Part shown: piece after piece, positions 17,215 to 23,435 of the stretch | Layout: each line of letters opens with the position of its first letter | Numbering within the stretch: the stretch's first letter is position 1 | Source of the DNA: Nostoc sp. TH1S01 | GTDB lineage: Bacteria > Cyanobacteriota > Cyanobacteriia > Cyanobacteriales > Nostocaceae | DNA: 36,923 bases | Direction of reading: 5' to 3' | Assembly: GCA_018993265.1 (NCBI GenBank) | Contig: JAGKSW010000078.1 | Span: forward strand, 1-36,923 | Program-made: the position numbers and the translations under genes | The notes under the pieces: model-generated | What the model saw: only the letters and a program-made list of their open reading frames with translations | Database searches by the model: none | What the model was told of the DNA's origin: nothing

Positions 17215-17655
17215 TTACCATTCTAATTCTTTAGGAATGAGTGATTTAGGAATTAACGAAGCTTGGATTTCTTTATCGGAAGGTCTTGTATACCACCAAG
17301 CCCAGGCTATTAAAACTGCTTGTAATGGCAATCTAATTGCTTGAACCCAAGGTGAATCTGAATATGGTATGGTTTCAATTTTAATATGATTAACTGCCAT
17401 GTTGATATTAGCAGGGAAAACAGCAATAAATAGCAGCACTAGTCCCCAAGCTGCTGCTTGACTCACAGGCGGAACTAATAACCCAATACCACCTAAAATC
17501 TCATAAAAGCCACTGAGATAAACTAATTCTAAAGGATAGGGCAGTTGTGGCGGCATGATTTTAACGTAAGGTTGCGGCACGGCAAAGTGTGTAATGCCTA
17601 CGATGATGATTGATATTGCCAAGATGACACGAAAGAGTTCCTTACGTCTGTTCAT
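17215..17655 (-). CDS. DoxX family membrane protein
   Basis: From the ATG at 17655 this encodes a 146-residue protein with about four hydrophobic helices: VILAISIIIVGITHFAVP, LELVYLSGFYEILGGIGLL, AAAWGLVLLFIAVFPANI and LPLQAVLIAWAWWY. The G-x-THF and P-x-N-x-x-M segments and the helix spacing are DoxX-like. A longer frame begins with TTG at 17724, but the ATG has an AGGCG site and a membrane-ready start. DoxX proteins are inner-membrane proteins of unclear function. It is followed at 12 bp by the ureidoglycolate-lyase-like gene. Confidence 0.82.
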   Translation of the reverse strand: MNRRKELFRVILAISIIIVGITHFAVPQPYVKIMPPQLPYPLELVYLSGFYEILGGIGLLVPPVSQAAAWGLVLLFIAVFPANINMAVNHIKIETIPYSDSPWVQAIRLPLQAVLIAWAWWYTRPSDKEIQASLIPKSLIPKELEW

Positions 17656-17741
17656 GGTTTCGCCTAATTTTATCCTTGCGCTTACCACTTTAGTTTGCTG
17701 ATTTTCAGGTGAGTTTGTCTTCAATCAATGGTAAGAAACAT

Positions 17742-17828: not shown

Positions 17829-17892
17829 TTAGTTAGATTTGAAAATTTGCGATCGCTCCCTGCTCCAATCCTGTAAAATTCCATTGATTAAC
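17829..17892 (-). repeat. 64-bp array repeat, copy R6 (distal end of array)
   Basis: On the minus strand this reads GTTAATC...AACTAA and encodes LINGILQDW..., ending FKSN and stop, in the same frame as the hydrolase C-terminus. It marks the left limit of the array. Confidence 0.8.
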
Positions 17893-17972
17893 ATTCCCAA
17901 TCAACGACGGCAAGTAACCTTAAAATAGGAACTATCGGCTTTCGTCCATCCGCTGCATTGGGATTGTTATGC
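17886..17972 (-). other. attC-like recombination site A (87 bp)
   Basis: On the minus strand: GCATAAC (R'' box, containing the TAA stop of the GNAT gene), AAT, then CCCAAT, which pairs exactly with ATTGGG next to GTTAATC (R' box). Further pairing CA(G)CG/CGTTG brackets an extra unpaired base, as in integron attC sites. The boxes differ slightly from RYYYAAC/GTTRRRY. Confidence 0.7.
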
Positions 17973-18446
17973 ATCTGCCCACGGAACCCATCTCAAAAAA
18001 CAACGATTACCTTGTTGTTCTGTAATCTCTGCACCCAGCCGATCATAAAAGCGAAGTCCACGGGTATTTCGAGCATCAGCATTCCACGCAAGATGAGTAC
18101 AGTCATTTTCTTTAGCAATTTGAGCTAGTTGAGCCATTAATGCTGCTCCTGCACCTTGGCTTCTCATCTCGTCATCCACGTACAAATCGTCAAGCCAGAT
18201 GCTTGGTTGACCTGCAAACGATGAATACCGAAATCCATATAACGCAAAGCCAACCTCACGTCCTAAAATCTCTGCAAACAAAACGTAAGAGAAGGGAATA
18301 ACTCCAAAAAGTGTTTTATGAAGCTTATCTTCAGATACTTGCAATGTACCAGAAAAAGCACCAATGTTTCGATCAAATTCAGATTTTTTCTGAATGAACG
18401 AGAAAATCAGTGACACATCATCAACAGTAGCATATCTAACTTTCAT
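17967..18446 (-). CDS. cassette-borne GNAT acetyltransferase
   Basis: A 159-residue GNAT. WLDDLYVDDEMRSQGAGAAL contains motif A with the acetyl-CoA loop RSQGAGA, and WNADARNTRGLRFYDRLGA is motif B. It resembles the diamine/polyamine (SSAT-like) acetyltransferase group (IWLDDLYV), but the substrate is not certain. GNATs are among the commonest cassette-encoded enzymes in integrons. The stop codon lies inside the attC-like core GCATAAC. Upstream it carries the array repeat R5 and a 100-bp leader shared with the HEPN/MltR cassette. Confidence 0.88.
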   Translation of the reverse strand: MKVRYATVDDVSLIFSFIQKKSEFDRNIGAFSGTLQVSEDKLHKTLFGVIPFSYVLFAEILGREVGFALYGFRYSSFAGQPSIWLDDLYVDDEMRSQGAGAALMAQLAQIAKENDCTHLAWNADARNTRGLRFYDRLGAEITEQQGNRCFLRWVPWADA

Positions 18447-18586
18447 GAATTCAAGTTGGCTTCTGATATTTCTTGTCTGGGCTATAATTTAATTGGGTTA
18501 AAGCATCCACATTCTCAAAAAATCATCACCTTACACCAATAATACTCAGATTTAGTCCTAGCCTATTAACATCCCATAGAATAACG

Positions 18587-18686
18587 CCCAAAGGAATTGC
18601 TTGAACAAATCCAGTATGTTATTCGATTTAAGCACTATTCTTACCAGTAAAAATAAAATCAGAGTCTCAGCTTACCTGCTCGCCTG
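18587..18686 (-). repeat. shared cassette leader, copy L1
   Basis: About 100 bp starting CCCAAAGGAATTGCTTGAAC on the plus strand, nearly identical to 21610-21710. In both places it directly follows an R repeat on the minus strand. The neighbouring GAATAACGCCC (18579-18589) resembles an attC core and arm and may be a relic site. The rest of the 437-bp gap between the GNAT and PIN genes is R5 and site B. Confidence 0.85.
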
Positions 18687-18750
18687 TTAGTTGGATTTTA
18701 AAACTTGTGATCGCTCCCCTATCAAATCCTGTAAAATTCCATTGACTAAC
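18687..18750 (-). repeat. 64-bp array repeat, copy R5
   Basis: The minus strand reads LVNGILQD...LKSN and stop in the hydrolase frame, from GTTAGTC to TAA. It adjoins attC-like site B. Confidence 0.85.
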
Positions 18751-18829
18751 GTTCTCCTTGAGCGACGGCTAGTAACCTTTGTATTTCAAACCCAGATATC
18801 CCAACTGTCTGCTGCAAGGGGGTTTTTGG
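18744..18829 (-). other. degenerate attC-like site B
   Basis: The R' side is intact (GACTAAC on the plus strand, then an arm with GCGACGGCTAGTAACC as in site A). The far side has TGCTGCAAGGGGG, related to TGCAACGGGATT of sites C and D, but the expected GTTATGC is GTTTTTG. The PIN stop lies about 55 bp beyond, so the site and cassette joint have decayed. Confidence 0.45.
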
Positions 18830-18883
18830 ACAGCTTTTATGACAAGTTGACAACACGATCGCAACTCATAGCTCCTAATCAAC

Positions 18884-19312
18884 TTAGCCCCCATTTTGTT
18901 GCCTGACTTGCTGTAACAACTCTTGGATAGATAATACAGATATAGGCGAATTCAGAAAACCTTGAGCATCACGGGTCACAATGGCTTCTAATCCTTGAGC
19001 GACTGCACTAAAAATTTGAACAGCGTCTTCAAAATCAGTTAAGCCAGAGTTGAAAGCTGATTCCAAAACGGCTCGATCAACTGAACAAATCATCATGGCG
19101 CTCAGTATTTCTGAGACTGCTTGTCGCGCTTGCTCAACGCTACGGGTGTGCCTGCGTGAGATATAGAAAATATCTGTTAGCGTTGTCGCTGTAACATAGC
19201 CAACGATCTCGCCTACATCGATTGCCTGAAACAGCAGTTCCGCATCCTGAGAAAAAGGTTCTCGTTGCAGCAAAAAATCTAGGACAATATTAGTATCAAT
19301 TAAAACTCTCAC
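18884..19312 (-). CDS. PIN-domain toxin (VapC-like ribonuclease)
   Basis: The 142-residue protein opens with RVLIDTNIVLDFLLQREPF, the first acidic motif of PIN nucleases (Asp in DTN). It continues with LTDFEDAVQIFSA (second and third acidic residues) and AIVTRDAQGF (last Asp region). It would cleave RNA unless bound by its antitoxin. It starts with GTG, overlapping the antitoxin stop by 4 nt (GTGA), the classical coupling of toxin-antitoxin operons. It is carried by the cassette array. The stop is not in a recognisable attC core because the site behind it is degenerate. Confidence 0.88.
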   Translation of the reverse strand: MRVLIDTNIVLDFLLQREPFSQDAELLFQAIDVGEIVGYVTATTLTDIFYISRRHTRSVEQARQAVSEILSAMMICSVDRAVLESAFNSGLTDFEDAVQIFSAVAQGLEAIVTRDAQGFLNSPISVLSIQELLQQVRQQNGG

Positions 19313-19539
19313 TGAAGAAACTTCTCCACCCGTCTCTCTTCCAGCATCGCTGCCACTTCTTCATCAGTTGGTGCAGATTGCTCTGTTTTTAGCAATCCTC
19401 TCATCCGTCGAATTGCACCGGAGCGGTCAGGCTGGGTAACGGTTGTATCTTGTAAGGATTCAATGATGACAGAGATCAGCGAGAGGCGCTCGCTGGGTGT
19501 TAACTTTAAAACTTGCGCTTTTATATCTTGCGACAACAT
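19309..19539 (-). CDS. antitoxin of the PIN toxin (VapB-like)
   Basis: A 76-residue protein with IKAQVLKLTPSERLSLISVI, a short helical segment typical of cyanobacterial antitoxins of PIN toxins, and a charged C-terminal toxin-binding tail with DEEVAAMLEERR. It lies directly upstream of the PIN gene and overlaps it by 4 nt. It should neutralise the PIN nuclease and probably represses its own promoter. No separate attC is seen between it and the preceding orphan antitoxin gene. Confidence 0.8.
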   Translation of the reverse strand: MLSQDIKAQVLKLTPSERLSLISVIIESLQDTTVTQPDRSGAIRRMRGLLKTEQSAPTDEEVAAMLEERRVEKFLQ

Positions 19540-19570
19540 GGATGGCTCCCATAATCGAGGGATTTACTAT

Positions 19571-19783
19571 CTAGTATGAGCGATGCCGATCGCCTGTTAG
19601 TGAGATTTTAAAATGTGCGATCGCCTCTTGAGCAAGCGCCTCTAATTTACCGTCTTCGATGTCTTGCTCTATCTGCTTGTCCCAGCGTTCGTAGTCTAAA
19701 TCAAGAAACCACAGTCTTAATTTCTCAAACTCACTTGATGGCAACGAAAGGATTGCTGCTTCGATTTGCTCCAAATTGGACAT
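19571..19783 (-). CDS. orphan antitoxin-like protein with replaced C-terminus
   Basis: A 70-residue protein: NLEQIEAAILSLPSSEFEKL, then RLWFLDLDYERWDKQIEQD and GKLEALAQEAIAHFK. The first 57 residues look like a family of small cyanobacterial antitoxins usually followed by a RelE/ParE-type toxin. From the HIP1 site at 19617-19624 onward the coding sequence runs into array repeat R4, giving the tail ISLTGDRHRSY. No toxin gene follows; instead comes the VapBC pair. It is therefore probably a relic that lost its toxin by recombination at the repeat. It may still be translated. Confidence 0.65.
   Translation of the reverse strand: MSNLEQIEAAILSLPSSEFEKLRLWFLDLDYERWDKQIEQDIEDGKLEALAQEAIAHFKISLTGDRHRSY
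19597..19624 (-). repeat. 64-bp array repeat, partial copy R4
   Basis: Only the distal half (GCGATCGC through TTTTAAAATC and CACTAACAGGCGATC) is present. It forms the 3' end of the orphan antitoxin gene. Confidence 0.75.
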
Positions 19784-19835
19784 AACCCTTTGTACCTCTC
19801 TCCCTTGAGAAAATTATAGCTTTCCCGGAAAGGCA

Positions 19836-19917
19836 GATTACCTTCACTCGTGGCTAATAACCTTGCGCTTCCAATCAATTAGCTTGATACGGTCGGTGTG
19901 CAACGGGATTGTTATGC
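19836..19917 (-). other. attC-like recombination site C
   Basis: The R'' box GCATAAC contains the stop of the TIGR02391-like gene and is followed by AATCCCGTTGCACACCGACC, identical to site D. The opposite arm is damaged: GATTACC instead of GATTAAC, and about 8 nt are missing. No R repeat follows. Confidence 0.6.
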
Positions 19918-20646
19918 GTTGCCCGCATCTGTATCCCAGTCTATATCTTCTAACATCTTTAAAAGCAAATCGATAAATACGATGATTGCCCCACCTATCT
20001 CTGGACTGGGATCTACAATGCGGTGTGCGTATGAATTGCGAAAAACAGACATCATACCTGCATACAAATCTCGATAAGCTTTAAGCTTTTTCTCTTCAAG
20101 TTTGCCACTCAGTACTGGATTCTTACCAGCAAAGATAATATTAACAATGCCTTCACCTGTTGCATCTGGGTTAATAGACTCTGTTTTACCAAGTTTTCGC
20201 AAACGTTCTTCTAAAACAACTGTTGCTATCCGAACTGCTTTATCCCACGCTTTAGGATCTGTACCGCCTGCACTTAACGAGATACGACATCGATCCCATA
20301 ATTCAGAATCTAAGTGACCTATTTCAGTCAAAGGGATCAAATGAGGAATTGCAGACAAATCAGGCGCACCAAAGTTAGAATCTATTGCTTCAAAAGCTCG
20401 ACTGGTAAGGGCGCATTTGTATTGGTCTTCACGCTTTTGATAGCAAGTTAAGCAGCCACTTTTCTCTAGCACATCGAGAGTCGTCTTTTTTATTTCAGGA
20501 ACATCACCTTGGTATTTTACAAGACGTGTTCCTTGCATATCCCACATAACCCAAATTTCTTCTTCATTGAGCTTTGCAGCACGCACTTCTGAAACGATCC
20601 ATTGCAAAAGCTTTTTCTGGGTATCAGTCAAACTGTAAGTTTGCAT
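19912..20646 (-). CDS. TIGR02391-like HEPN-type protein
   Basis: From the ATG at 20646 the protein has 244 residues; a longer frame starts with TTG at 20664. The C-terminal half (KAWDKAVRIATVVLEERLRK, GEGIVNIIFAGKNPVL, MSVFRNSYAHR) resembles the TIGR02391 (Ymh) family. Counted in the 250-residue form, it carries R209-N210-x3-H214, the Rx4-6H motif of HEPN ribonucleases. The N-terminal 90 residues look like a small winged-helix or MarR-like fold. A role as an abortive-infection or stress RNase is plausible but inferred. The stop lies in the attC core. A TATAAT box lies 38 bp upstream. Confidence 0.7.
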   Translation of the reverse strand: MQTYSLTDTQKKLLQWIVSEVRAAKLNEEEIWVMWDMQGTRLVKYQGDVPEIKKTTLDVLEKSGCLTCYQKREDQYKCALTSRAFEAIDSNFGAPDLSAIPHLIPLTEIGHLDSELWDRCRISLSAGGTDPKAWDKAVRIATVVLEERLRKLGKTESINPDATGEGIVNIIFAGKNPVLSGKLEEKKLKAYRDLYAGMMSVFRNSYAHRIVDPSPEIGGAIIVFIDLLLKMLEDIDWDTDAGNA

Positions 20647-20683
20647 ACTTAGACTACTAAACAACTTGTAGGCATGACCATTT

Positions 20684-20689
20684 ATTATA
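20684..20689 (-). promoter_or_regulatory. -10 box of the TIGR02391-like cassette
   Basis: A perfect TATAAT within CGTATAATAAATGGTCAT on the minus strand. The same segment (CGTATAATAAATAGTCAT) precedes the HEPN/MltR gene, so it is a conserved cassette promoter. No good -35 is seen. Confidence 0.6.
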
Positions 20690-20724
20690 CGTAAATTTTC
20701 TTGTAAGTTGATGCTGATCGCCTG

Positions 20725-20788
20725 TTAGTTGGATTTTAAAATCTGCGCTCGCTCCTGTATCCAATCCTGTAAAATTTCATTGAATAAC
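20725..20788 (-). repeat. 64-bp array repeat, copy R3
   Basis: Minus strand: LFNEILQDWIQERAQILKSN and stop, in the hydrolase frame. Confidence 0.85.
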
Positions 20789-20869
20789 GCTCCCGTTCAC
20801 CCGCCGCTAGTAACTTCTCAAACTCGACCAACTGTCCTATACGGTCGGTGTGCAACGGGATTGTTATGC
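20782..20869 (-). other. attC-like recombination site D (88 bp, best preserved)
   Basis: On the minus strand: GCATAAC-AAT-CCCGTT-GCA-CACC...GGTG-AACGGG-AGC-GTTATTC. CCCGTT/AACGGG and CACC/GGTG pair perfectly, with an unpaired GCA bulge on one side only and then CCG/CGG. R boxes match 6 of 7. This has the R-L-L-R layout, asymmetric bulge and length of integron attC sites. Confidence 0.75.
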
Positions 20870-20874
20870 CGCTC

Positions 20875-21480
20875 TCAACTACCTTCAGTTTCTTCAAGAA
20901 ATCGCGTCTTGTCTAGTTGTGCTGTCTTAATTGGTTGCAGTTGAACACTAACTGCTTCAACCACTTCAAGGCTCATCAGCAACACCACGACAGCAGCACA
21001 AAAATTCAATAATTTTTCAGGGAATCCGCCTTGTCTCAATTGATCCACCATATTGTCGAAAGAATCTCCATCTTTTCTGACATCTCTAATTAACTCATTA
21101 AGCTGCCCATTGTGAGGTGCCTGGGAGAGACTTGCAACATCAATGGAATGAGCAAATGCATTCCGAATTTTTCTTATCATCTGTAAAGCATGTTCAAAGT
21201 TTCTGTCGATTACGCCTAATCTATACGCAAGAGCAATTTTGGCAGAAAAGGAGCCAAGAGGACGCTCAGAATCAAAGAGGTTATCCGAGCCACCAGGATG
21301 AGGGTGCATTAATTTCTTGAGAAGGCGCTCAAGGCTTACATCTAAGCGAGCAGCACCCAAAACTACTGCCGCTCGCTCCCCCTCTCTTGCAAGACCCACG
21401 ACAAAATTTGTTGTCTCCTGAATGAGCCTCTCCTGAAGTTCTTCAATTTCACTCTCTGTTAGTAGAAGGTTGTTATCCAT
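20875..21480 (-). CDS. MltR-like HEPN-type protein
   Basis: A 201-residue protein. AAVVLGAARLDVSLERLLKK, then LFDSERPLGSFSAKIALAYR and LQMIRKIRNAFAHS match the layout of the MltR (mannitol repressor-like) family. The RNAFAH segment (R106, H111) is also the Rx4H motif of HEPN ribonucleases. No mannitol genes are nearby, and the cassette setting points to a stress or defence role rather than a sugar regulator (inference). The C-terminal 60 residues include a hydrophobic helix (LLNFCAAVVVLLMSLEVV). The stop lies 5 nt before attC-like site D. A conserved TATAAT lies about 105 bp upstream. Confidence 0.72.
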   Translation of the reverse strand: MDNNLLLTESEIEELQERLIQETTNFVVGLAREGERAAVVLGAARLDVSLERLLKKLMHPHPGGSDNLFDSERPLGSFSAKIALAYRLGVIDRNFEHALQMIRKIRNAFAHSIDVASLSQAPHNGQLNELIRDVRKDGDSFDNMVDQLRQGGFPEKLLNFCAAVVVLLMSLEVVEAVSVQLQPIKTAQLDKTRFLEETEGS

Positions 21481-21584
21481 TACTGGTGCTTTTAGGGATT
21501 TAGAAAGTCATCAACAGATACATATAACATTACCTACCTTTCCAACTACCGTCCTTACCGGGAGATCAGGTAGTATGACTATTT

Positions 21585-21590
21585 ATTATA
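21585..21590 (-). promoter_or_regulatory. -10 box of the HEPN/MltR cassette
   Basis: TATAAT in CGTATAATAAATAGTCAT on the minus strand, with TTGGGA 18 bp upstream as a weak -35. Nearly the same sequence is used by the neighbouring cassette. Confidence 0.55.
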
Positions 21591-21609
21591 CGGAAAGTTT
21601 CTGTATATT

Positions 21610-21710
21610 CCCAAAGGAATTGCTTGAACAAATGCAGTATTTTATCCGACTTAATCACTATTCTTACCAGTAAAGATAAAATTAGAGTCTCAGCTTATAC
21701 AGATCGCCTG
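21610..21710 (-). repeat. shared cassette leader, copy L2
   Basis: About 100 bp nearly identical to 18587-18686, again directly after an R repeat. The 429-bp gap between the HEPN/MltR and brnA genes is made of this leader, R2, R1 and attC-like site E. Confidence 0.85.
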
Positions 21711-21774
21711 TTAGTTAGATTTTAAAATCTGCGATCGCTGTCTGCTCCCATCCTGTAAAATTCCATTGACTAAT
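21711..21774 (-). repeat. 64-bp array repeat, copy R2
   Basis: Minus strand: LVNGILQDG...ILKSN and stop in frame. The core is GACTAAT, one change from GACTAAC. It is only 19 bp from R1, so this unit is empty of any gene. Confidence 0.85.
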
Positions 21775-21793
21775 AGATGATACCGATCGCCTG

Positions 21794-21857
21794 TTAGTTA
21801 GATTTTAAAACTTGGGATCGCTCTTGCATCCAATCGGATAGAATTCCATCGACTAAC
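21794..21857 (-). repeat. 64-bp array repeat, copy R1
   Basis: Minus strand: LVDGILSDWMQERSQVLKSN and stop in frame. It adjoins attC-like site E. Confidence 0.85.
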
Positions 21858-21915
21858 GGTTCACTTGAGCAGCTACAATGAATATTAAACTCAGCATCAA
21901 AATCTTGTGTTAGTC
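21851..21915 (-). other. attC-like recombination site E (65 bp)
   Basis: GACTAAC (R'', containing the brnA stop) and GTTAGTC (R') are perfect 7-bp inverted repeats. Inside, TTGA-(T)-GC pairs with GC-TCAA, leaving one extra base, the hallmark asymmetry of attC. It is shorter than sites A-D and unrelated to them in the centre. Confidence 0.68.
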
Positions 21916-22215
21916 TGCTTGCACCGAATTGTTGTACGGCTGAGTGTTTACTTTACTATGACTTTCAATGTATTGACGCAAGATTGAGTTGATTAACGTT
22001 TTGTATTCACCATCTTGAGCTTGAAACCACTTCAAAACATCAGGTTCAATCTGAACTAACTGCTGTGCTTGAGTTGCAGGAATTCGTAGAGTTGCCTTCT
22101 CAAAAAACTCCTCTGTCAATGGTGGGATATCGGAGTAATCAATACCCTCATCGTCCATTGCCTCTAATGCTGCCCAATTAGTACGAGAGGTACTGCTCAA
22201 GTCTTCGTCGCTCAT
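21910..22215 (-). CDS. brnA: BrnA antitoxin
   Basis: A 101-residue protein: SRTNWAALEAMDDEGIDYSD then IPPLTEEFFEKA is the BrnA N-terminal pattern, and VLKWFQAQDGEYKTLINSIL the DNA-binding ribbon-helix-helix part. It binds and blocks BrnT and usually represses the operon. It overlaps the end of brnT by 38 nt. The stop codon TAA lies in the attC core GACTAAC, so the gene is trimmed exactly to the cassette end. Confidence 0.9.
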   Translation of the reverse strand: MSDEDLSSTSRTNWAALEAMDDEGIDYSDIPPLTEEFFEKATLRIPATQAQQLVQIEPDVLKWFQAQDGEYKTLINSILRQYIESHSKVNTQPYNNSVQAD

Positions 22216-22456
22216 ATCTATTTGCCCTTCGTGCTGAAATGATCCGAATTACGTCATTCTGTCGTTCTGTCCAAACCACGACCGCTACACCGTTACCGAG
22301 GAAACCAATACCGAACCAACGGTCTTCGCCATAATCAAACCGATTGTCTAGCTCAATTAGCATTGGACTCTCAAACATTTCAGGAACATCGGCAAAATCA
22401 ATCTCATGCTTGCGAATATTCTCTAAATTTTTTGCCTCATCCCATTCAAACTGCAT
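22178..22456 (-). CDS. brnT: BrnT ribonuclease toxin
   Basis: A 92-residue protein of the BrnT (RelE-fold) family: FEWDEAKNLENIRKHEIDF at the start, DYGEDRWFGIGFL in the middle, and IRIISARRANRYERRRLEQY with the catalytic Arg/His-type region at the end. It cleaves RNA and halts translation until neutralised by BrnA. It is the first gene of the array, 73 bp after the hydrolase stop codon. Confidence 0.93.
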   Translation of the reverse strand: MQFEWDEAKNLENIRKHEIDFADVPEMFESPMLIELDNRFDYGEDRWFGIGFLGNGVAVVVWTERQNDVIRIISARRANRYERRRLEQYLSY

Positions 22457-22529
22457 GAAGGACTAGAAATGCCAATTAAACTATCTCTATTATCCTGCAC
22501 CTGTCAACTTTGCACAAATGCAACTCAGG

Positions 22530-22593
22530 TTATTTAGATTTTAAAGCTTGCGATCGCTCCCATATCCAATCTTGTAAAATTGGGTTGACTAAC
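22530..22593 (-). repeat. hydrolase 3' end = array repeat R0
   Basis: The last 21 codons of the hydrolase gene (from GTTAGTC to TAA) match the R1-R6 consensus at about 52 of 63 positions, in the same frame and with the same stop. No attC arm lies on the hydrolase side. Confidence 0.8.
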
Positions 22594-23435
22594 TCTGGTG
22601 CTTCATCTTGGGGGCAATGTCCTACTCCTTCTAAGGGAATGAATTTTTCTACTGATGGGTAGTTAGCTAATTCTCGACCTAAATGTATTGGTTCCCAAGG
22701 GTCGGCGGTTCCCCATAAAATAATTGCTGGGCAAGATAATAATGGCAGTAAGTCTTCTGGTAAAGGCCCTGTAGAGTAAGAAGTAAATGCCAAAAACACA
22801 GCCACAGCACCAGGATCTTTGGCTGGCGCTGTCAGAATATCGACTAGTTCATCTGTGACTGTCTCTGCGTTGGCGTAAGCTTGCAGCAAAATTTTCCGCA
22901 CTGTTTTGGGTTTAGCGACTTGATTAAAAAAGAATTGCCCAATTGGTTTAATAGATAATACCCGTTGTAAAATTGGCGCACCCACACGCCGAGTCCAAGG
23001 TAAGGTGGCGCGTTTGCGATCGTGTAATAATCGCAAGGAACAGTTAATTAAGGCGACTCCCAAAGCAATATCTGGAGAACTAACTGCGGCTTGCATCGCT
23101 ACAATACAGCCAATGGAATTTCCCACTAAAAAAGCTGGTTCACCTACCACTTCCCGACAAAAGTCTGCTACTTGCTGTCCCCACATTTCCAAGGTGTAAG
23201 CAATTTTTTCTCCCGGCTGAGGTTTCGCAGAACCACCGAAGCCAAGCAAATCTATGGCATAAACACGGCAAGTTTCTGCAAGGGCTGGTATATTTTTACG
23301 CCAATGCCACCATGAGGCTCCAAAGCCATGCACCAAAACTACTGCTGGCCCGGTCGTTCCTTGAGTTTGGTAACAAATTGAGAACCCCTGCCATGTCCAA
23401 GTTTTTGCGGTAAAAGCAGTTGTAGAAGTCTTCAT
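22530..23435 (-). CDS. alpha/beta hydrolase; anchor of the cassette array
   Basis: A 301-residue alpha/beta hydrolase: VVLVHGFGASWWHW (oxyanion loop), VGNSIGC (nucleophile S107), WGTADPWEP (acid D245) and GVGHCPQDEAP (H273) form a full catalytic triad. This type is widespread in cyanobacteria; the substrate is unknown. Its C-terminus, LVNPILQDWIWERSQALKSK, is the parent or relative of the repeat reiterated six times downstream. The gene itself is intact and contains HIP1, so it belongs to the host chromosome, with the array inserted behind or into its 3' end. Confidence 0.9.
   Translation of the reverse strand: MKTSTTAFTAKTWTWQGFSICYQTQGTTGPAVVLVHGFGASWWHWRKNIPALAETCRVYAIDLLGFGGSAKPQPGEKIAYTLEMWGQQVADFCREVVGEPAFLVGNSIGCIVAMQAAVSSPDIALGVALINCSLRLLHDRKRATLPWTRRVGAPILQRVLSIKPIGQFFFNQVAKPKTVRKILLQAYANAETVTDELVDILTAPAKDPGAVAVFLAFTSYSTGPLPEDLLPLLSCPAIILWGTADPWEPIHLGRELANYPSVEKFIPLEGVGHCPQDEAPELVNPILQDWIWERSQALKSK

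Follow-up and report, generated by a model that had tools for sequence, protein, structure and literature searches.

The window analyzed here, a stretch of 36,923 nucleotides that forms contig C12 of the 7.65 Mb draft genome of Nostoc sp. TH1S01 (labelled G000 below), contains between an alpha/beta hydrolase gene and a DoxX-like gene a cassette array that represents a chromosomal integron of Nostoc in relic form and, by definition, a cluster of attC sites lacking an integron-integrase (CALIN). At least two attC sites lie close together with no intact integrase gene (intI) nearby, which is what defines a CALIN, and the intact intI that marks a complete integron is missing. Sequence comparison shows that the array comprises attC sites, stubs of intI, relics of attI and repeated copies of the 3' end of the hydrolase gene (referred to as tails), and that its cassette content differs from that of sister genomes. 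A preliminary description of this DNA had proposed an integron cassette array lacking an integrase, and this is supported by the covariance-model matches and the cassette differences among related genomes reported below; moreover, the hydrolase tails, intI stubs and attI relics show that an integron has decayed at this very site, rather than that the array only resembles one. It is probable, in our judgment, that a truncated platform was copied within this relic and that recombination between the hydrolase tails has been the main route of cassette exchange in sister species. For the further proposal, that the platform was multiplied following loss of the integrase and that homologous exchange at the host gene end now swaps defence and toxin-antitoxin (TA) cassettes between Nostoc species while the hydrolase stays intact, we put the chances at about even.

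Since Rfam gave no match within the window, an attC model was built in this analysis, a covariance model (R1) trained on 11 attC sites from sister genomes and none from the window. In the window R1 produced five matches, all on the minus strand and with E-values from 4.3e-16 to 1e-7, the sixth-best match having an E-value of 3.4. The five sites span 4.1 kb and are, from the hydrolase side, site E at 21851..21937 (E-value 4.3e-16), site D at 20782..20869 (4.3e-15), site C at 19833..19917 (1e-7), which has a degenerate R' box and no tail after it, site B at 18744..18831 (3.6e-8) and site A at 17886..17972 (3.2e-9). Trained without the window, R1 therefore matches exactly the five attC-like sites that had been predicted, for which an absence of covariance-model matches had been named as the outcome that would count against them (5/5 sites matched). 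Two details of that prediction were revised. Site E had been drawn as 21851-21915 with an R'' box GACTAAC at 21909-21915, and its R'' is really GTACAAC at 21931-21937; and of three units said to have their TAA stop within R'', those of sites A and C stand and the third does not. The open reading frame (ORF) preceding site D ends with TGA upstream of R''. It is important to note that site E is not fully independent of R1, because one of the training sequences is the attC that this BrnTA cassette has in another species, and that site D looks similar, on visual inspection, to rows c49 and c197 of the training set.

The specificity of R1 was assessed on 80 hydrolase loci taken from named genomes and totalling 1.26 Mb, among which there were 5 matches at an E-value of at most 0.01, located in three of the four array loci, and none at that threshold in the 76 hydrolase loci without an array. 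More than one tail copy was present in 4 of the 80 loci, exactly the array-bearing four. R1 also matched, in a different family, an attC that adjoins a genuine intI (L126, E-value 4.5e-6), and beyond the window its next matches in G000, with 150 of 2345 first-look candidates scored, were on contigs C20 (5.7e-5), C234 (0.03) and C229 (0.08). In a scan for stem complementarity, sites A (14.4) and D (14.8) stood out in the array, the best of 300 shuffles reaching 14.4; sites B (8.4) and E (8.9) fell within the shuffle range, site C was not found, and two same-strand places outside the array scored 14.0 and 14.4. Stems alone are thus no proof of attC sites, because equally high scores occur outside the array and sites B, C and E do not rise above chance. 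The 11 training attC sites fold as single strands in which R'' pairs with R' and L'' with L'; pairing was seen in 76.5% of cells versus 68.5% in shuffles and 18-49% when the structure was slid, with a structure that had been chosen for this alignment.

Evidence that the array was once a complete integron comes from remnants of intI and attI. Two 5' stubs of intI lie on the plus strand, antisense to the cassettes: stub 1 (21611..21670) consists of 20 codons with 75% identity by tblastn to the IntI of locus L128 (E-value 6e-4), and stub 2 (18570..18647) of 26 aligned codons, of which two precede the start codon and one is a stop, with 77% identity to the same protein (E-value 7e-7). Adjoining stub 1 on the minus strand is attI relic 1 (21577..21611), which has 4 substitutions in 35 positions relative to the attI-side sequence upstream of intI in L127-L130, and a second relic on the same strand (20678..20694; direct repeat D9), without a stub, comprises only the core and deviates from the core pattern by no more than 3 substitutions. 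The full attI pattern, with up to 9 substitutions allowed, had three matches in 720,950 both-strand positions, all of them in arrays (the window, G001 and G010). As in a complete integron, an attI lies beside the start of intI, here in the form of a relic, and the intI stubs and attI relics stand in the order that an integron would show. At the first position of the array in G001, the hydrolase end is followed by a stub, attI and the first cassette, a layout that is that of an integron minus most of the integrase gene. Stub and linker have one common cut end in G001, G008, G010, a second array of G002 and contig C20 of G000, and this one shared cut end suggests that the platform was copied later than the integrase was lost. 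A repeated TTATACGGAAAAATTC motif was also observed upstream of intI in L127-L130. Contig C20 itself carries a second relic integron (L153 2982-4490) with an attC, one cassette, an attI-like site (7 substitutions) and an intI stub but no hydrolase tail; a gene near it is, from its sequence, presumably aroB.

A search of the whole genome for intI, which the preliminary description had recommended, identified no intact gene: no match to TIGR02249 in G000 exceeded the cut-off (best 54.9 versus 265 bits), and in the array there were only the 5' stubs. The earlier statement that the window holds no IntI-type recombinase is accordingly correct for an intact integrase, and it overlooked the two 5' remnants. 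With all first-look candidates scored, none of the 11 genomes of the genus had a TIGR02249 match over the cut-off; C-terminal integrase fragments remain in G002 and G007, and contig C150 of G000 has a fragment that is 80% identical across 49 residues. When 150 genomes of the order were searched, those of the genus among them, nine had a match over the cut-off (L125-L133), all outside the genus, and these comprised seven stop-free genes of near full length and two with an internal stop, one end lost. Weaker or partial matches (E-value at most 1e-20) were found in 26 further genomes of the 150, 13 first-look candidates having been scored in many genomes of this order-wide search.

A further component of the array is the tail, the hydrolase 3' end of ~65 bp, which stands in frame with its stop codon (LVN[P/G]ILQDWIxERSQxLKSN) behind sites A, B, D and E and not behind site C. 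All copies were located with nhmmer on the minus strand. Site E is followed by a copy at 21789..21859 and, in tandem with it and with no gene between, a second copy at 21706..21775; a copy after site D lies at 20720..20790, a partial copy of the right half at 19592..19628, a copy after site B at 18682..18752, and the last, after site A and adjoining the DoxX gene, at 17829..17893. In the G000 genome the tail was found nowhere beyond the array locus, the next match having an E-value of 0.1. Hydrolase genes without an array (e.g. that of G003) have the identical GTTAGTC and protein end, and the host hydrolase is therefore the source of the tail. Variability of the internal tails at codon positions 1, 2 and 3 was 0.133, 0.127 and 0.156, respectively. 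The full hydrolase end is kept in 8 of 9 array-bearing genomes. The G008 hydrolase is cut short in the tail, within the GCGATCGC stretch (L082 1363-1405), and has lost its last residues.

Arrays were found beside the hydrolase in 9 of the 11 genomes of the genus (G000, G001, G002, G004, G005, G006, G008, G009 and G010) and not in G003 and G007. Cassettes were counted in the eight complete arrays, leaving out that of G002, which is split over contigs. These eight contain 62 mechanically defined ORFs of at least 65 aa on the cassette strand and 22 on the other strand, overlapping frames included. The 62 cassette-strand ORFs group into 37 families; 11 of these are shared by at least two genomes, no family is present in every one, and no two arrays have identical content. 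The preliminary description had named a fixed gene order without cassette differences among relatives as evidence against an integron array; what was found is strongly different cassette content beside the same hydrolase. BrnTA is present in four genomes, at differing array positions. Several shared cassettes are more similar between genomes than the hydrolase next to them: BrnT has 98.0% identity versus 92.0% for the hydrolase (6 pairs), c19 95.8% versus 89.7% (6 pairs) and c6 95.5% versus 90.6% (21 pairs), whereas the values are 97.6% versus 97.7% for c42 and 92.8% versus 92.4% for c165, with one pair each. A Pfam scan of one member of each of the 37 families identified no recombinase (E-value at most 0.001, or 0.01 for the window proteins). 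The sole mobility genes found in it are two frames of an IS4/5-family transposase inside the G008 array (L082 4786-5579). Among the cassettes of sister arrays are large defence-like ones encoding a GmrSD-type restriction enzyme and a NERD-UvrD helicase (L077 6803-8617, L081 15924-17819), as well as a Fic protein gene and TA genes; given these genes, the locus also has the look of a defence hotspot. In G002 the strand opposite the hydrolase bears another small array with tails, at a distance of about 15 kb from that gene (L135 = G002:C130:12000-31000, reverse strand 13.1-15 kb).

In a working integron, IntI cuts and joins cassettes at the G^TT of each attC, and if an integrase had moved these cassettes, the whole segment on the right-hand side of G^TT would be expected to move together with the gene that follows it on that side. 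This expectation was examined in an alignment of 42 tails, from which two partial copies were left out. In the first and second tail segments, the tails of hydrolase genes are more similar to one another (identity 0.907 and 0.853) than to internal tails (0.707 and 0.732), and in the third segment the two values are equal (0.783 and 0.780). Among internal tails, positions 36-49 were linked to the left neighbour (9 of 10,000 permutations) and not to the right (4751), and positions 67-89 were linked to the right neighbour (127 of 10,000) and not to the left (7904). That part of the tail is linked to the left neighbour is statistically supported, for segments defined post hoc. Consistent with this, the change points at which left linkage ends were estimated at position 47 for the hydrolase, 37-67 for c165, 33-67 for c42 and 28-32 for c19, compared with 15/16 for the integrase point, and right linkage begins between positions 69 and 140. 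The exchange zone is the tail and beyond, scattered as expected from homologous recombination, and only for c33 is the integrase point among the possible positions. As the exchange points lie mostly in the tail, downstream of the integrase cut, recombination between tails is likely to be the present mechanism, and we infer that it is ordinary homologous recombination.

A course of events that would account for these features is as follows. An integron would once have been located beside the hydrolase, and its integrase gene would have been deleted to about the first 24 codons, leaving the stub. The platform consisting of the last ~65 bp of the hydrolase, the intI stub and attI would have been copied, whole or partly, ahead of several cassettes, and cassettes of sister species would have been exchanged and deleted mainly between tail copies, downstream of G^TT. 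Because the tail has the true frame end and stop codon, exchange at the first tail copy would leave the hydrolase whole. We speculate that an integrase, perhaps acting in trans, first joined the tail to an attC at the hydrolase's own GTTAGTC, which resembles an attC R' box, and that at a later stage exchange between tails took over.

A number of observations weigh against this course of events, and several of them would suit an ordinary CALIN that is still being shuffled by an integrase supplied in trans, in which the tail is the shared start of cassettes after insertion at the hydrolase GTTAGTC in the manner of an attG site. Of 33 internal tails, 28 start at TTAGTC, 17 of them directly after G, which is where the integrase cuts, and such starts imply that an integrase made junctions at some time; the hydrolase GAGTTAGTC exists in array-less genomes, such as G003; integrases over the cut-off are found in other genera, and an IntI may reside on an unsampled plasmid or in an unsampled strain. 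The c33 change point (6-32) is likewise compatible with the integrase cut. Within the linkage analysis, positions 18-35 of the internal tails showed no left linkage (5276 of 10,000 permutations; right, 1627), the alignment there being disturbed because two tails have a deletion, positions 90-103 were linked to neither side (4283 and 2811 of 10,000), and a permutation test of the whole left half did not reach significance (443 of 5000). The boundaries of the tail segments were set with the data already in view, and the change-point analysis covers 35 of the 42 tails, seven having been dropped and the two further partial copies never having been among the 42. In addition, an empty hydrolase-DoxX site was sought and none was found, DoxX not being beside the hydrolase in G003, G007 and G013, and the comparison is between species, not strains, with no array watched changing. 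Nevertheless, we regard continued shuffling by an integrase in trans as rather unlikely, in that tail positions 36-49 travel with the left neighbour although the right-hand gene would be expected, the cut lies upstream of most change points, and an integrase over the cut-off is absent from all 11 genomes of the genus.

Two other explanations place the specificity elsewhere than in IntI. A non-integron integrative system could target the hydrolase 3' end with a site-specific recombinase, each unit bringing a copy of that end, much as the staphylococcal cassette chromosome element SCCmec integrates at rlmH. That the tail restores the hydrolase frame and stop codon, with a full end in the array-bearing genomes other than G008, where it is cut short, would agree with such an element, but the proteins scanned, one from each of the 37 families, include no recombinase, the mobility genes amount to the IS4/5 transposase in G008, and the layout is explained by the attC, attI and intI relics; we therefore consider this explanation highly improbable. 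Somewhat less improbable, but still quite doubtful, is that exchange is specific to the GCGATCGC palindrome (highly iterated palindrome 1, HIP1) in the tail and does not reflect general homologous recombination. Two junctions coincide exactly with GCGATCGC, namely a clean GCGATCGC x GCGATCGC fusion of c6 and tail in the window and a tail break in G002 right after the octamer; the stretch over which linkage passes from left to right includes the octamer; and HIP1 has been tied to site-specific and illegitimate recombination (PMC4390886), although its role is described there as unsettled. However, the octamer is situated within the longest invariant block, where homologous exchange would be expected anyway, and the left-linkage change points are scattered over positions 28-67, a scatter that weakens the idea of exchange exactly at HIP1 and argues against HIP1 as the sole point. 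The array nonetheless offers a natural setting for a test of HIP1 recombination.

Relic integrons as such are not new. Integrons, intI pseudogenes and attC sites have been described in Cyanobacteria (PMC2426708, PMC8352920, PMC9668308), and Nostoc may be represented in the cyanobacterial attC set of PMC8352920; in PMC2426708 nearly a third of the intI genes were pseudogenes, and both CALINs and mobile-integron arrays containing pieces of attI have been reported (PMC12901181). Like other CALINs, the Nostoc array has several attC sites dividing single genes or TA pairs on one strand with no intact intI; unlike them, it keeps intI 5' stubs and attI relics, has the end of a host gene after most attC sites and varies in content between species of a genus in which no integrase was found. 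It also resembles sedentary chromosomal integrons with an inactivated integrase, of Xanthomonas and others, in having an intI/attI/array platform with a decayed integrase at one chromosomal site. The arrays of Xanthomonas are said to have stabilised after integrase inactivation (PMC8618304), whereas no two of the 8 complete Nostoc arrays agree in content and the Nostoc platform has been multiplied. As in the delta-attI-type cassettes of mobile integrons (PMC12901181), attI pieces occur within arrays and away from the first position, but in those cassettes attI replaces the attC behind the gene, while in Nostoc attI and stub stand before the gene and attC is kept. A likeness to attG insertions, in which integron cassettes enter genomic sites and which are mentioned in the same source, is that the hydrolase GTTAGTC is a plain chromosomal GTT site, which can explain the joining of array and gene; the Nostoc array differs in that the host gene end itself is copied between cassettes. 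Among the matches listed in a literature search (titles and abstract openings, without subscription journals and preprints), no report dealt with a Nostoc integron array, an array in which the end of a host gene is repeated, or integrons together with GCGATCGC. What is new here is thus the multiplied platform of host gene end, intI stub and attI and the turnover apparently without an integrase, integron relics and cyanobacterial attC sites being known already. Among bacteria, CALINs outnumber integrons that have intI (PMC9668308), and the present arrays, which differ within a genus lacking an over-cut-off integrase in 11 genomes, bear on how CALINs change after integrase loss. The repeated end of a neighbouring gene is a testable means of cassette turnover and, if our interpretation is true, would represent an integrase-free route by which an integron relic stays dynamic.

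On the minus strand, from the hydrolase to DoxX, the cassettes of the window are BrnTA, DUF4145, Hypoth_Ymh, a fusion of c6 with half a tail, a VapBC-like pair and GNAT; scans for sigma-70 promoters and terminators gave sites no more numerous than in shuffles. Cassette 1 encodes the BrnT toxin (22178..22456; PF04365, E-value 8e-27) and BrnA antitoxin (21910..22215; PF14384, 2e-7), cassette 2 a DUF4145 (HEPN-like) protein (20875..21480; PF13643, 2e-4) and cassette 3 a Hypoth_Ymh protein (19912..20664; PF09509, 7e-13), the TAA stop of which is within R'' of site C. The small gene of family c6 (19571..19783), which has no Pfam match, is fused at GCGATCGC to the right tail half, as seen from a comparison of c6 3' ends in 7 arrays; in G006, G001 and G010 a ParE-like toxin gene (c19) lies 3' of an intact c6, and this gene is missing in the window. 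Cassette 4 comprises a PIN_3 protein, a VapC-like toxin (18884..19312; PF13470, 2e-23), and a gene at 19309..19539 without a Pfam match, for which a C-terminal match to HEC-01B of PADLOC was obtained (4e-11) and which we infer from its position ahead of the PIN gene to encode a VapB-like antitoxin. Cassette 5 encodes a GNAT acetyltransferase (17967..18446; PF00583, 4e-14), with its TAA stop within R'' of site A. The cargo had been described as GNAT, BrnTA, VapBC and HEPN proteins, and GNAT, PIN_3, BrnT and BrnA are indeed over their cut-offs, as is Hypoth_Ymh, whereas DUF4145 falls just below (21.7 versus 23.1 bits). The right flank of the array is the DoxX-like gene (17215..17724, minus strand; PF13564), which occupies this position in eight of the nine genomes with an array, the exception being G002, where there was no match at an E-value of at most 1e-30. 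The left flank is the hydrolase gene (22530..23435, minus strand; Pfam Abhydrolase_6), whose 3' end at 22529-22593, matched by the tail profile, is the tail source; its protein was matched in 60 of 60 relatives, with a best match of at least 62% identity in 58 of them.

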